Assembly (NCBI RefSeq): GCF_030269485.1
Contig: NZ_BSTL01000002.1
Coordinates: 359,671-423,670, forward strand
Source of the DNA: Actinoplanes sp. NBRC 103695
GTDB lineage: Bacteria > Actinomycetota > Actinomycetes > Mycobacteriales > Micromonosporaceae
DNA: 64,000 nt
Reading direction: 5' to 3'
Position 1 is the stretch's first letter; every line of letters begins with the position of its first letter. Of this stretch, positions 27,317 through 64,000 are shown one piece after another. Both the position numbers and the translations under genes were made by a program. The notes beneath the pieces are model-generated. The model saw only the letters and a program-made list of their open reading frames with translations, was not told the DNA's origin and searched no databases.

Positions 27317-30439
<3,123 letters not shown>

Positions 30440-36063: not shown

Positions 36064-36122
36064 GCATCAGGCGCAGCAAGGCACACACTGTTGAAGATCC
36101 GGCACACGAGGTGACGAACGCG

Positions 36123-37103
36123 ATGGCTATGACGGCGGCGGTCAAGGACGAGCTGAGCCGGGTCGACGTGCCCAAGCCGTGCTGCCGGCGGGCCGAGATG
36201 GCGGCCCTGCTGCGGTTCGCCGGCGGACTGCACATCGTCTCCGGCCGGGTGGTGGTGGAGGCCGAGCTCGACACCGGCGCGGTGGCCAGGCGGCTTCGCC
36301 GGGAGATCGCCGAGGTGTACGGCTACCAGTCCGAGGTGCATGTCCTCGCGTCCGGCGGCCTGCGCAAGGGCAGCCACTACATCGTCCGGATCGTGAAGGA
36401 CGGCGAGGCGCTGGCCCGGCAGACCGGACTGCTGGACGTCCGCGGCCGCCCGGTGCGTGGCCTGCCGCCGCACGTCGTCTCCGCGAACGTCTGCTGCGCG
36501 GTCGCCGCGTGGCGGGGCGCGTTCATGGCACACGGCTCGCTCACCGAGCCGGGCCGGTCCAGCGCTCTGGAGATCACCTGCCCGGGCCCGGAGGCGGCAC
36601 TCGCCCTTCGCGGCGCCGCGCGCCGGCTCGGCATCACCGCCAAGGAGCGGGAGGTGCGCGGCGTCGACCGGGTCGTGATCAAGGACGGGGACGCGATCGC
36701 GGCGTTGCTCACCCGGATCGGCGCGCACGGGTCCGTGCTTGCTTGGGAGGAGCGTCGTGTACGCCGTGAGGTGCGCGCCACGGCCAACCGCCTGGCGAAC
36801 TTCGACGACGCGAACCTGCGCCGCTCGGCCCGCGCGGCGGTGGCCGCCGCCGCCCGGGTCACCCGCGCCCTGGAGATCCTGGCCGACGAGGCCCCCAACC
36901 ACCTGACCAGCGCCGGCCAGCTGCGCCTGGAGCACCGCCAGGCCTCACTCGAGGAGCTCGGCGCCCTCGCCGACCCCCCACTGACCAAGGACGCCATCGC
37001 CGGCCGCATAAGGCGTCTCCTAGCCTTGGCGGACAAGCGCGCCCGCGACCTGGGCATTCCGGACACCGAGGCCGCAGTCACGCCAGAGATGATGGCTTGT
37101 TAG
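36123..37103 (+). CDS. whiA: Sporulation/division regulator WhiA
   Basis: 326 aa. WhiA combines a degenerate LAGLIDADG homing-endonuclease fold (about residues 1-220) with a C-terminal helix-turn-helix (about 240-315). It acts with WhiB as a developmental activator in Streptomyces and affects division in other Gram-positives. Signature stretches are '[14 protein letters not shown]', '[18 protein letters not shown]', '[19 protein letters not shown]', '[14 protein letters not shown]' and '[27 protein letters not shown]'. The ATG at 36123 gives the conserved start; an upstream GTG at 36111 is possible. The stop codon is followed after one base by a palindromic element. Confidence 0.97.
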
Positions 37104-37104
37104 C

Positions 37105-37230
37105 TGGTCGTCGCTCCGCTCCTCCGGGCATTTCGCCCCGAGTAGCTGACGACTTGACCGCGAAAAAGCACCACGGCTTCGCCTAGCACTTTTTCACGGT
37201 CAAGTCGTCAGCGGGCGAAATGCGGGTGGT
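37105..37230 (+). repeat. Stop-adjacent palindromic element, copy 1 (after whiA)
   Basis: This ~126-bp element starts one base after the whiA TAG with TGGTCGTCGCTCCGCTCC and ends with GGGCGAAATGCGGGTGGT. An outer inverted repeat (GCATTTCGCCC/GGGCGAAATGC) encloses a 24-bp, nearly perfect inner stem (37145-37168 with 37189-37212) and a 20-nt loop containing the conserved ACCACGGCTTCGCCT. Copy 2 is at 44096-44220 in the opposite orientation. No ORF. It may act as a 3'-end hairpin of whiA. Confidence 0.88.
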
Positions 37231-38510
<1,280 letters not shown>

Positions 38511-42041: not shown

Positions 42042-42476
42042 ATGGCTCGGATGCGCACGATGGTGCTGGTTTCGGCGGCTGTGGTAGCCGGAGTAGGTGG
42101 CACGGCGATCGCGGCGGTGGCCAACGCGGACGATGCGCCGAAGCGACCGCCGGCCTCCACCGGCAGCGACTGGGACCGCTCGTCGTCGGACGATCCGGCG
42201 CCCGCGCCGACGGTCAGCCCGGGAGCGCCGGCGCCCGCGGAGAGCCCGGCGCCGGGTGGCGCACGGCCGGGGGTCGCCGAGAGCCCGGTGCCCTCGGACG
42301 CTCGGAAGGTGCCTGGCAAGTCCGCGCCCGGACGCCGGGGTGCGCCGGCGCCTGCGCCTTCGCCGACCAGGCTCGGTGAGAAGGCGCCTCGGCCCGTGCC
42401 GTCGCCGGGGGGTGCTTCGGCGCCGCGGCCTGCTCCGGCCGATGAGAACCGGCCGACGCCTGCGCCGGCGCGTTGA
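42042..42476 (+). CDS. Secreted Pro/Ala-rich protein, unknown
   Basis: 144 aa. A signal peptide or N-terminal anchor (about residues 1-28, ending AIAAVANA) is followed by a low-complexity chain of Pro, Ala, Ser, Gly and charged residues with no domain. GGGAG about 9 nt upstream supports the ATG. The last codons (GCGCCGGCGCGTTGA) are the first unit of a 31-bp tandem array that continues past the stop, so the C-terminus has probably been shaped by repeat slippage. Function unknown; the low-complexity part is compatible with a cell-wall-spanning linker. Confidence 0.65.
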   Translation: MARMRTMVLVSAAVVAGVGGTAIAAVANADDAPKRPPASTGSDWDRSSSDDPAPAPTVSPGAPAPAESPAPGGARPGVAESPVPSDARKVPGKSAPGRRGAPAPAPSPTRLGEKAPRPVPSPGGASAPRPAPADENRPTPAPAR

Positions 42477-42617
42477 GCGTGGGCTGACGCCTGTGCGGGC
42501 GTGTTGAGTGCGAGCCGACGCCTGTGCGGGCGTGTTGAGTGCGAGGCGACGCCTGTGCGGGCGTGTTGAGTGCCGGTGTGTTGAGTGCGGGCTGATGCCT
42601 GCGCTGGCGCGTTGAGG
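42455..42617. repeat. 31-bp tandem repeat array across a stop codon
   Basis: Units of GACGCCTGYGCSGGCGYGTTGAG plus ~8 bp start at 42455, 42486, 42517, 42548 and 42594; units 2 and 3 are nearly identical. Unit 1 contains the stop codon of the upstream gene. There are no spacers of distinct sequence, so it is not CRISPR. Confidence 0.85.
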
Positions 42618-44055: not shown

Positions 44056-44095
44056 AGCGCACGCAGCCAGTCCGCAGGTCTTGATCTAGAGCTTG

Positions 44096-44220
44096 ACCAC
44101 CCGCATTTCGCCCGTCGGTGACTTGGCGCGAAAAGGTCGAGGCGAAGCCGTGGTCCTTTTCGCGCCCAAGCCACCGACCGCCCTTAGGGCGAAATGCCCG
44201 GAGGAGCGAAGCGACGACCA
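44096..44220 (-). repeat. Stop-adjacent palindromic element, copy 2 (after pgl)
   Basis: Same family as 37105-37230, inverted. On the minus strand it starts one base after the pgl TGA with TGGTCGTCGCTTCGCTCC and ends with GGGCGAAATGCGGGTGGT. The inner stem (44114-44136 with 44155-44178) differs in sequence from copy 1 but remains paired, with one bulge; the loop again contains the CCACGGCTTCGCCT block. It separates the convergent sigma-partner and pgl genes. Confidence 0.88.
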
Positions 44221-44221
44221 T

Positions 44222-44995
44222 TCAGCTCCGCAGGCTACGCAGCTTGGCCGGCACGTTCGCGGCCGCCGCGCGGTCGAGGAGCCACACCGTCTTGTTGGTG
44301 CCGCTCACCCCGGCCGCGGGAAGCTGCTTGGGGCCGGCCCCGTCGATGGCCATGCCGACCGGTGCGGCCTTGTCGGGGCCGGACGCGATCAGCCAGATCT
44401 CCTCGGCCGTGTTGATCGTGGGGAGGGTCAGGGTGATGCGGGTGGGCGGCGGCTTGGGGCTGTTGTGTACGGCCGCCGTCGTGCCCGTCTCGTGGTACAC
44501 CGGGTGCTCGGGGAAGATCGACGCCACGTGGCCGTCCTCGCCGACGCCGAGCATCAGCACGTCGAAGTGCGGCAGCTCGGAACTCCCGGGCTTGGTCGCG
44601 GCGGCCAGTTCGCGGGCGTACCGGTCGGCGGCCGCCTCCGCGTCGGTGCCGTCGGGGCCGTCCGAGGGCGGCATCGCGTGGATCCGGGCCGGGTCGAGCG
44701 GCAGCGCGTCGAGCAGCGCCTCCCGGGCCTGGGTCTCGTTGCGGTCGGGGTCGCCGGACGCCACGAACCGCTCGTCGCCCCACCACAGGTCGACGTGTGA
44801 CCACTCGATCGCGTCGGACGCCGGGAGTTCCTTGACGGACCGCAGAACCTTCTTGGCGATGCGGCCGCCGGTGAGCACCACGTTCGCCCAGCCGCGCTCC
44901 GCCTGCGCGTCGATGATCTTGACGACCAGCCGGGCCGCCACGGCCGACGCCAGGATGTCGGCGTCGGGGACTACCACCACCACGGTCTCGGTCAT
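44222..44995 (-). CDS. pgl: 6-phosphogluconolactonase
   Basis: 257 aa. Hydrolyses 6-phosphogluconolactone in the oxidative pentose phosphate pathway. Family motifs are 'VVLTGGRIAKKVL' (usual GGxTP region, here diverged), 'WSHVDLWWGDERFVASGDPDRNETQA' and 'FDVLMLGVGEDGHVASIFPEHP'. It starts with an ATG that overlaps the opcA stop (ATGA). It is the last gene of the minus-strand tkt-tal-zwf-opcA-pgl cluster. One base after its stop the palindromic element begins. Confidence 0.95.
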   Translation of the reverse strand: MTETVVVVVPDADILASAVAARLVVKIIDAQAERGWANVVLTGGRIAKKVLRSVKELPASDAIEWSHVDLWWGDERFVASGDPDRNETQAREALLDALPLDPARIHAMPPSDGPDGTDAEAAADRYARELAAATKPGSSELPHFDVLMLGVGEDGHVASIFPEHPVYHETGTTAAVHNSPKPPPTRITLTLPTINTAEEIWLIASGPDKAAPVGMAIDGAGPKQLPAAGVSGTNKTVWLLDRAAAANVPAKLRSLRS

Positions 44996-61779: not shown

Positions 61780-63002
61780 CGGCCTTCGACGTCGCGCGGG
61801 TTCGGGAGGACTTCCCGATCCTGAGCCGGGAGATCAACGGGCATCCGCTGGTCTACCTCGACAGCGCCAACACCTCGCACAAGCCGGTGCAGGTGCTCGA
61901 CGTCATGCGGACGTACTGGGAGCGGCACAACGCCAACGTGTCGCGCTCGGTGCACACGCTCGGCACCGAGTCGACCACCGCGTACGAGGACGCCCGCGCC
62001 AAGGTGGCGACGTTCATCGGCGCCCGGTCGCCCGACGAGGTCGTGTTCACCAAGAACTCGACCGAGGCGATCAACCTGGTGGCGCACTCGCTGGGCGCTT
62101 CGGTGGGCCCCGGCGATGAAGTCGTGATCTCCGAGATGGAGCACCACTCCAACATCGTGCCGTGGCAGCTCCTGTGCGAGCGGACCGGCGCGACGCTGCG
62201 GTGGTTCGGCATCACCGACGACGGTCTGCTGGACGAATCCGGCCTCGCCGAGCTGATCAACGAACGCACCAGGATCGTTTCGCTGGTGCACATGTCGAAC
62301 ATCCTCGGCACCATCAACGACGTCTCCCGGATCATCGCCCGCGCCCACGAGGTCGGCGCGCAGGTGCTGCTGGACTGCTCGCAGTCGGTGCCGCATCTGC
62401 CGCTCGACGTCGTCGAGCTGGGCGCCGACCTGATCGCGTTCACCGGCCACAAGATGCTCGGCCCGACCGGCATCGGCGTGCTCTGGGCCCGCGCGGACCT
62501 GCTCCGCGAGATGCCGCCGTTCCTCGGTGGCGGCTCGATGATCGAGACCGTCACGATGGAACGCACCACCTACGCCGCGCCGCCCGCCCGGTTCGAGGCC
62601 GGCACCCCGCCGATCGCCGAGGCGGTCGGCCTCGGCGCCGCCGTGGACTATCTCTCCGCGATCGGCATGCGGGAGATCCACGAGCACGAGATCGAGCTCA
62701 CCGGGTACGCCTTGAAGACGCTGGCCGGCATCGACGGCGTGCGGGTCTACGGCCCCGGTACGCCCGACGGCCGCGGCGGCACGGTCTCCTTCGACGTCGC
62801 CGGGGTGCACCCGCACGACGTCGGGCAGATCCTGGACGACCTGGGTGTCGAGGTCCGCGTGGGGCATCATTGCGCTCGTCCGGTGTGCGCCCGCTTCGGC
62901 GTCTCGTCGATGACTCGCGCGTCGTTCTACCTCTACAACACCACTGCGGAGATCGACGCGCTGGCCGCCGGGGTCGAGCAGGTGAAGAAGGTGTTCTCGT
63001 GA
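61776..63002 (+). CDS. sufS: Cysteine desulfurase SufS
   Basis: 408 aa, group II cysteine desulfurase. The PLP-binding Lys lies in 'FTGHKMLGPTGIGVLW' (about residue 226) and the active Cys in 'VRVGHHCARPVCARFG' (about residue 366). 'YLDSANTSHKPVQVLD' and 'DEVVISEMEHHSNIVPWQ' are family stretches. It takes sulfur from cysteine and passes it to SufU. ATG after AAAGGAGG; strong translation is expected. Its stop overlaps the ATG of a second small ORF. Confidence 0.98.
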   Translation: MTAFDVARVREDFPILSREINGHPLVYLDSANTSHKPVQVLDVMRTYWERHNANVSRSVHTLGTESTTAYEDARAKVATFIGARSPDEVVFTKNSTEAINLVAHSLGASVGPGDEVVISEMEHHSNIVPWQLLCERTGATLRWFGITDDGLLDESGLAELINERTRIVSLVHMSNILGTINDVSRIIARAHEVGAQVLLDCSQSVPHLPLDVVELGADLIAFTGHKMLGPTGIGVLWARADLLREMPPFLGGGSMIETVTMERTTYAAPPARFEAGTPPIAEAVGLGAAVDYLSAIGMREIHEHEIELTGYALKTLAGIDGVRVYGPGTPDGRGGTVSFDVAGVHPHDVGQILDDLGVEVRVGHHCARPVCARFGVSSMTRASFYLYNTTAEIDALAAGVEQVKKVFS

Positions 63003-63130
63003 TGATGGCCTCGCCCAGCTCGGCGGGCGCTGCTCCCCGAGGAGTCGTTGTCGGCGCCACCGGTCTCCGGCCGGGAAAGTGCGCCCGTCCAGAAACCGGC
63101 GTCCCCGACAACGACGGGAGCAACGCATGA
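63002..63130 (+). CDS. 42-aa small ORF bridging sufS and sufU
   Basis: ATG at 63002 shares its A with the sufS TGA (TGATG), and the TGA at 63128-63130 overlaps the sufU ATG (ATGA). The product begins MMASPSSAGAAPRG and contains GKCARPE with one Cys. The DNA inside forms a long inverted repeat: GTCGTTGTCGG (63044-63054) with CCGACAACGAC (63105-63115), extended by a further imperfect stem, plus outer arms GCTCCC/GGGAGC. It fills the whole 124-bp gap. As with the first small ORF, coding function is unproven. Confidence 0.4.
   Translation: MMASPSSAGAAPRGVVVGATGLRPGKCARPETGVPDNDGSNA
63044..63115. repeat. Imperfect palindrome inside the sufS-sufU spacer
   Basis: Arms of about 21 bp with 18 paired positions enclose a ~30-nt loop. 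At RNA level this is a stable hairpin between two suf cistrons, 40 nt after the sufS stop and 11 nt before the sufU start. Confidence 0.7.
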
Positions 63131-63561
63131 CGGACCAGCTGTACCAGGAGATCATCCTGGACCACTACAAGCACCCGCATGGGCGTGGGCTGCGCGATCC
63201 GTACTCCGGTGAGGCGCACCACGTGAACCCGACGTGCGGCGACGAGATCACGGTCCGGGTCACGGACGATCTTTCCGACATCTCGTACGACGGGATGGGG
63301 TGCTCGATCAGCCAGGCGTCCGCGTCCGTGCTGCACGAGCTGCTCAAGGGCAAGCCGATCGGTGAGGCGGCGAAGATCCATGAGGCGTTCGTCGAGCTGA
63401 TGCAGGGTCGCGGTCAGGTCGAGCCGGACGAGGAAGTACTGGGCGACGGGATCGCTTTCGCCGGGGTCGCGCGGTACCCGGCCCGGGTCAAATGTGCGCT
63501 GCTGCCGTGGATGGCGTTCAAGGACGCCGCGGCACGTGCCGGTGTGGAGGTAACGGTATGA
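63127..63561 (+). CDS. sufU: Sulfur acceptor/scaffold SufU
   Basis: 144 aa, IscU-like zinc protein. Ligand cysteines lie in 'HHVNPTCGDEITV' (about residue 38), 'GMGCSISQAS' (about 61) and 'RVKCALLPW' (about 123); the extra ~20-residue GIAF-containing stretch that distinguishes SufU from IscU is present ('DGIAFAGVARYPAR'). It receives sulfur from SufS. ATG overlaps the end of the second small ORF; its stop overlaps the sufT ATG (ATGA). GGGAG lies 9 nt upstream. Confidence 0.97.
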   Translation: MTDQLYQEIILDHYKHPHGRGLRDPYSGEAHHVNPTCGDEITVRVTDDLSDISYDGMGCSISQASASVLHELLKGKPIGEAAKIHEAFVELMQGRGQVEPDEEVLGDGIAFAGVARYPARVKCALLPWMAFKDAAARAGVEVTV

Positions 63562-64000
63562 CGGACGACACTGCTGCTTCGGCGGCTCCCGCTTCGGCCG
63601 ACGAGGCTGCTGCCTCGGTCGGCACGGCCCCCGCCTCGGTCGGCACGGCCCCCGCCTCGGTCGGCACGGCCCCCGCCTCGGTCGGCACGGCCCCCGCCTC
63701 GGTCGGCACGGCCCCGGCTTCGGTCGGCACGGTGCCTTCCGAGGTCTCGAAGGCCTCGATCGCCGACATCGAGGAGGCCATGAAGGATGTGGTCGACCCC
63801 GAGCTCGGCATCAACGTGGTCGATCTCGGCCTCGTCTACGGCGCGCACGTGGACGACGAGAACGTCGCCACGCTGGACATGACACTGACCTCGGCGGCCT
63901 GCCCGCTCACCGACGTCATCGAGGACCAGACCCGCGCGGCCCTGACCACCGGACCCGGCGGGGGACTGGTCAAGGACTTCCGGATCAACTGGGTGTGGCT
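63558..64000 (+). CDS. sufT: SufT/MIP18-family (DUF59) protein, 3' end outside window
   Basis: 147 residues are visible; the gene runs past the window end. The DUF59 domain begins near residue 68 ('IADIEEAMKDVVDPELGINVVDLGLVYG') and includes 'LTSAACPLTDVIEDQTRAAL' with the conserved Cys. SufT proteins assist Fe-S cluster maturation and delivery. The N-terminus carries about six tandem copies of VGTAPAS (about residues 21-60), coded by a perfect 21-bp DNA repeat (63612-63734), absent from usual SufT. ATG overlaps the sufU stop (ATGA). Confidence 0.93.
   Translation, partial: MTDDTAASAAPASADEAAASVGTAPASVGTAPASVGTAPASVGTAPASVGTAPASVGTVPSEVSKASIADIEEAMKDVVDPELGINVVDLGLVYGAHVDDENVATLDMTLTSAACPLTDVIEDQTRAALTTGPGGGLVKDFRINWVW
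63612..63734 (+). repeat. 21-bp in-frame tandem repeat in sufT
   Basis: Four identical GCCTCGGTCGGCACGGCCCC-type units (21 bp) followed by one with CCG and a diverged one encode VGTAPAS heptads. The near identity points to recent expansion by slippage. Confidence 0.9.

Follow-up and report, generated by a model that had tools for sequence, protein, structure and literature searches.

Why should a long palindrome lie a single base behind the stop codons of two different genes? The question is raised by two copies of an element in the 64-kb stretch of the Actinoplanes sp. NBRC 103695 genome analysed here as a whole (the window), one downstream of whiA and the other downstream of pgl. We propose that the element is probably a non-autonomous mobile palindromic repeat, comparable to REPs and MITEs and nearly confined to Actinoplanes, which inserts behind stop codons. 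In testable form, the question is whether gene ends are targeted by a mobile element or the element is merely tolerated there.

Copies of the element in the window

The whiA gene (36111-37103, plus strand) was called from its open reading frame (ORF) and by a codon model, with Pfam/NCBIfam matches to WhiA_N, LAGLIDADG_WhiA, and HTH_WhiA. Its last codons, GCT TGT, precede a TAG stop (37101..37103), which is followed by one base, C, and then by TGGTCGTCGC, starting at 37105 on the plus strand. The first copy (37105..37238, plus strand; covariance-model match of 129 bits) comprises a 5' leader, a main hairpin, and a 3' block. The leader, TGGTCGTCGCTCCGCTCCTCCGG (37105..37127, plus strand), bears a GC-GNA-GC motif (GCGGAGC) on its complementary strand; the lower stem is formed on the plus strand by the 5' arm GCATTTCGCCC (37128..37138) and the 3' arm GGGCGAAATGC (37213..37223), and the upper stem with its apical loop (37145..37212, plus strand) closes with GCTGAC/GTCAGC.

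The pgl gene (44995-44222, minus strand), encoding 6-phosphogluconolactonase and called by the same ORF, codon-model, and Pfam/NCBIfam evidence, ends in CGG AGC TGA, with the stop codon at 44222..44224 (minus strand). Here, too, a single base, A, separates the stop from TGGTCGTCGC, which starts at 44220 on the minus strand; the second copy occupies 44088..44220 (minus strand; 119.6 bits). Identity between the two copies is 81% over their full length, and the fold of the pgl copy is 4.8 standard deviations more stable than those of its shuffles (z = -4.8). We thus confirm the positions given in the earlier note, which had placed the element one base after both stops (TAG-C for whiA, TGA-A for pgl) in the orientation of the gene.

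A third, diverged copy (63007..63131, plus strand) was detected by the covariance-model search (57.7 bits, E = 2e-12, over 63005-63142) and adjoins the sufS stop codon (TGA, 63000..63002, plus strand) on its 3' side. The sequence GGGAG just 5' of the sufU start codon (ATG, 63127..63129, plus strand) is part of the lower 3' arm of this copy, the hairpin of which may conceal the sufU ribosome site.

The window also contains tandem repeats of other kinds: 21-nt units (CGGCCCCCGCCTCGGTCGGCA) at 63562-63771, in the ORF after sufU; 31-nt units resembling TTGAGTGCGAGCCGACGCCTGTGCGGGCGTG at 42443-42612; and 15-nt units resembling CCAAGACGGCTCCGG at 30219-30428, which if read in frame would give a Lys/Ala-rich tail.

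Structure and distribution of the repeat family

The element is about 125-150 nt long and folds into one long hairpin of ~40 bp (about 41 bp in the aligned stem). Its consensus consists of a leader, CTGNGYYTNN-TGGCCTCGCTTCGCTCGGC, lower stem arms GGGCATTTCGCCC/GGGCGAAATGCG, a long upper stem with a short closing loop, and a 3' block, ACTTTGGTTGCGGT. An alifold analysis of 32 copies yielded 31 pairs, 19 of which have changed on both sides in a compensatory manner. Across 105 copies the stem pairs are nearly all Watson-Crick, with 6 G-U pairs and 34 A-C mismatches, 14 of the latter falling in a single column. So few G-U pairs would be atypical of an RNA helix but would fit a palindrome acting at the DNA level or a requirement that both strands fold. 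As to strand-specific folding, the lean toward A-C in the stem, part of which comes from that single column, would point to the complementary strand, whereas the 3' mini-hairpin of the element shows the opposite, with G-T on the top strand. On the complementary strand of the leader, a GC-GN(1-3)A-GC motif occurs in 98 of 117 copies, and it never occurs on the top strand; this arrangement recalls very stable DNA mini-hairpins, and we take it as a lead only.

Three copies (L012, L015, and L033) have the usual leader followed by a quite different yet self-complementary upper stem, and the latter two share an apical sequence resembling GCCGCAAAGAGCGACGGC. At five own-genome copies (L002, L003, L004, L005, and L006), short tandem repeats with units of about 11-25 nt adjoin the 3' end of the element; some of these units duplicate the element's own 3' end, as if it seeds tandem duplication.

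In its own genome the element gave 15 blastn matches, a few of which represent the reverse match of the palindrome or partial copies. Within the genus (GTDB Actinoplanes) it was found in 31 of 67 genomes by blastn and in 56 of 67 by the covariance model, with up to 34 covariance-model matches per genome. When 250 genomes were sampled across the family, the element appeared only in Actinoplanes and in one other genus of 44. This sole genome with matches outside Actinoplanes (G094, genus g29) has six copies and could either have received the element by transfer or belong to a sister lineage. Apart from Pseudosporangium ferrugineum, the named organisms closest by whiA belong to Actinoplanes, Paractinoplanes, and Amorphoplanes. 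No Rfam 15 family matched the element above its gathering score, we found no description of this repeat family in Actinoplanes in the literature, and scanning named genomes for an exact DNA pattern, with a tool that may omit the genome analysed here and those very near it, gave no match.

Near-identical copies occur at unrelated loci within one genome, a further sign of mobility, and at some sites the element is retained across several species. In 21 of 34 cases the best ortholog was closer than the best paralog, a mixed signal with respect to concerted evolution versus vertical descent. Within the own genome the leader pattern turned up at just 13 places; neither this search nor the survey of Y1_Tnp pointed to a transposase that moves the element or to an autonomous parent.

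Insertion and placement at gene ends

Occupied and empty orthologous sites were compared. Downstream of a hypothetical gene (P0001), a clean insertion of 150 nt lies exactly behind CACAACCACTGA in one genome (G004) and is absent from another (G036), and a native terminator-like hairpin lies downstream in both; no target-site duplication was found in this comparison. Across species this gene end is occupied in some genomes, lacks the element in many, and holds decayed remnants in others; in most occupied genomes the element lies behind the stop, and one genome (G012, L332) carries it inverted. A second site (L222) is occupied in G006, where a native terminator-like hairpin again lies downstream of the element, and is empty in G009, G010, G021, G051, and G050. 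No spacer separates sufS from sufU in the 29 relatives examined, where the two genes either abut or share the overlap TGATG; relative to G025, the window contains a clean 125-nt insertion within the TGATG overlap that parts sufS from sufU, so that the new sufU start codon lies within inserted DNA. The flanks of this copy form an imperfect 7-nt repeat, ATGATGG/ATGACGG. Because the element has inserted cleanly behind TGA stops, leaving a native terminator in place or splitting the sufS-sufU junction, we favor a mobile palindrome that inserts behind stop codons over a terminator as such.

In the mechanism that we propose, the element would integrate cleanly into the chromosome with its leader end against a stop codon, at a point between the stop and the native terminator, a convergent gene, or the next gene of an operon. 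Such a landing spot would be nearly neutral, and the leader often carries a TGA of its own, so that reading frames terminate either at the element's edge or shortly within it. A selfish repeat of purely recent origin would be expected to persist less than this element does at some sites across several species, and this counts against the proposal.

The earlier note had considered the same offset in two copies unlikely to arise by chance, an argument that fails once more copies are considered. Elsewhere in the own genome, copies lie 10, 28, 34, 43, 89, 99, 120, 145, and 158 nt past a same-strand stop, most of them 28-158 nt away, and one sits behind an opposite-strand gene; among the own-genome copies examined, only those at whiA and pgl have a gap of exactly 1. 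In a wider sample of 105 strong copies fetched from other Actinoplanes genomes, the commonest gaps are 5-6 and 0, and only 4 copies lie exactly 1 nt from the stop. These two sets of gaps reject a fixed one-base spacing as a rule, and the exact one-base gap is a coincidence of two copies.

Judging from diverged rather than close relatives, both offsets are best read as the result of small deletions that arose at the junction after insertion. In sampled Actinoplanes-type relatives whiA ends in TGC/TGT TGA. The element may have entered behind this TGA (TGTTGA|GCTGG), with subsequent loss of one G converting TGTTGAGCTGG to TGTTAGCTGG and giving TAG-C. For pgl, where the comparison used only loci with readable ...RSLR* ends, the gene ends in CTG CGC TGA in the nearest relatives and in CTG CGG AGC TGA here, and the stop sits in a leader-like sequence, GAGCTGAATGG, which recurs in another own-genome copy. 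A loss of two bases from CTGCGCTGA|GCTGAATGG could have produced CTGCGGAGCTGAATGG, leaving the stop inside the leader-like sequence.

The close, oriented association of the element with stop codons is nonetheless real and genus-wide. A same-strand gene lies upstream of 90 of the 105 copies, and in 54 of these 90 the element begins within -12..+12 nt of the stop. After orthologous sites were collapsed, the 62 non-redundant sites comprised 40 in convergent spacers, 12 and 10 in the two codirectional arrangements, and none in divergent spacers; by comparison, 8 of 54 gene pairs in the window are convergent. Of the gene 3' ends that face the element's 5' end, 31 of 52 are no more than 12 nt away, whereas this holds for 10 of the 50 that face its 3' end (Fisher p = 5e-5); gene ends were taken from a purpose-written codon-usage model and individual ends may be wrong. 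At gaps of 0, 4, 5, and 6 the stop is TGA in 23 of 23 cases, versus 72% TGA in the same loci. A simple CTGA target was considered as the sole rule and is unsupported, since overall the stops near the element are used in the same proportions as in the background. Listing distances and orientations, as the earlier note had suggested, thus revealed no random scatter in the sample as a whole, although distances do vary widely among the own-genome copies that lie outside the window.

This placement could also have arisen if the element inserts at random and purifying selection leaves copies only in harmless places, stop codons themselves going unrecognised; such an account concerns the cause of the placement and not mobility. 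Random placement in the same convergent spacers would already bring 16 of 40 leaders to within 12 nt of a stop, and 22 were observed, so that the case for targeting is weak if it rests on position alone. The scatter of own-genome copies (10-158 nt from stops) and the background stop usage near the element fit the same account. Against it count the much greater proximity of the 5' end than of the 3' end to stops, the position of the G004 element exactly at the stop though a spacer existed, and the TGA within the leader at fixed offsets of 0, 5, and 6. The end asymmetry is stronger evidence than position alone and favors some directing of insertion toward stops. We regard random insertion followed by selection as a somewhat unlikely cause of the placement, and infer that insertion machinery, not only selection, may favor stop codons. 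One rather unlikely form of such machinery is a recombination system that recognises the end of an ORF, through the stop sequence or the context of translation termination, and places a single strand, folded and always in the same orientation, behind it. If so, the element could spread without damage to genes.

We consider it decidedly unlikely that the element is primarily a 3'-end device, its hairpin acting as a (bidirectional) RNA terminator, a 3'-end stabiliser, or an RNase III site and being kept at transcript ends. The concentration between convergent genes, the great stability of the hairpin on both strands, the compensatory changes in 19 of 31 pairs, and the persistence at orthologous sites are all in keeping with such a role. 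No U tract follows the hairpin, the 3' block reading CGACTTTGGTTGCGGT or GGGTGGTTGCG, but this is no bar, the feature being weak in GC-rich actinomycetes: Streptomyces terminators have merely 3-4 U past the hairpin (PMC12207403). Against the device stand the stem with almost no G-U (6 versus 34 A-C), unlike most conserved RNA helices, and the many genomes in which the same gene end lacks the element. Moreover, native terminator-like hairpins persist downstream of the element at three sites, and one copy interrupts the sufS-sufU operon, in which a terminator at that point would deprive sufU of transcription; both findings argue against a terminator role as the main reason for the element's presence. 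A side effect on terminator function, or on mRNA 3' ends or stability, is possible.

Of the two readings that the earlier note had put forward, insertion at stops gains support from the empty and occupied sites, the end asymmetry, and the convergent enrichment, and a 3'-end device kept only there is not needed. Relatives should be compared before a hairpin met once or twice at gene 3' ends is annotated as a terminator, since native terminators remain downstream of this element and one copy splits an operon for Fe-S cluster assembly.

Mobilisation by a Y1 (IS200/IS605-like) transposase that moves repeats as a folded single strand, as in REP/RAYT systems, is highly improbable: the strand-specific GC-GN(1-3)A-GC mini-hairpin, the mismatches leaning to A-C (G-T on the complementary strand), and the REP-like placement near gene 3' ends (PMC3733652) speak for it, but Y1_Tnp (PF01797) is absent from the own genome and from G042, G043, G047, G050, and G057, which have 20-31 copies each, the foot of the hairpin carries neither a GTAG nor a CGTC tag, and the element far exceeds the 20-40 bp of REPs. 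PF01797 occurs in 21 of 67 Actinoplanes genomes with no link to element copy number; this and the lack of Y1_Tnp in the own genome led us to reject the mechanism.

Comparison with known systems

The element adds to the Actinobacteria a genus-wide palindromic repeat family that is strikingly tied to stop codons in one orientation, has cleanly empty counterpart sites, and lacks an obvious transposase. Among known systems, integron attC sites are long imperfect palindromes situated right behind the stop of an ORF, in fixed orientation, with a variable stem and strand-specific features. The element shares all of these properties, being itself a long, oriented palindrome behind an ORF stop with a variable stem and strand-specific features, but it is single and scattered rather than arranged in arrays, and by eye its ends are not GTTRRRY/RYYYAAC. 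Intrinsic bidirectional terminators resemble it as hairpins between convergent genes and near stops; the element differs in being additional to native terminators, in occurring also within an operon, and in forming a conserved sequence family with a leader and loop.

Like MITEs, the element is short, non-coding, and foldback, inserts cleanly, and spreads within genomes, and its presence and absence at orthologous sites are as clean as expected of a MITE. It differs in having a near-perfect long stem with compensatory changes and an oriented placement behind stops; the leader-pattern search and the site comparisons gave no parent IS and no clear target-site duplication.

The likeness to REPs is broader. 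Both are palindromic, repeated, intergenic, and lineage-specific, and both lie at gene 3' ends, often <20 bp from the stop; consistent with REP habits, the element is found next to ORF 3' ends and in none of 62 cases in a divergent spacer. Its placement has precedent, because REPs between convergent genes also lie mostly <20 bp from gene 3' ends (PMC3733652), and the CGTC class of REPs is likewise without a dedicated transposase (PMC3733652). The palindrome does not end in a GTAG/CGTC tetranucleotide: the bases before the lower stem are CGGC/CTCC-like, the leader consensus is TGGCCTCGC, and the CGTC of own-genome copies lies in the leader and is not conserved in the genus. REPs measure 20-40 bp as opposed to 125-150 nt, and the element has no link to RAYTs and resides in Actinobacteria, which PMC3733652 does not mention. 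In our judgement the element works like a REP or MITE, yet by its defining features it is not a REP.
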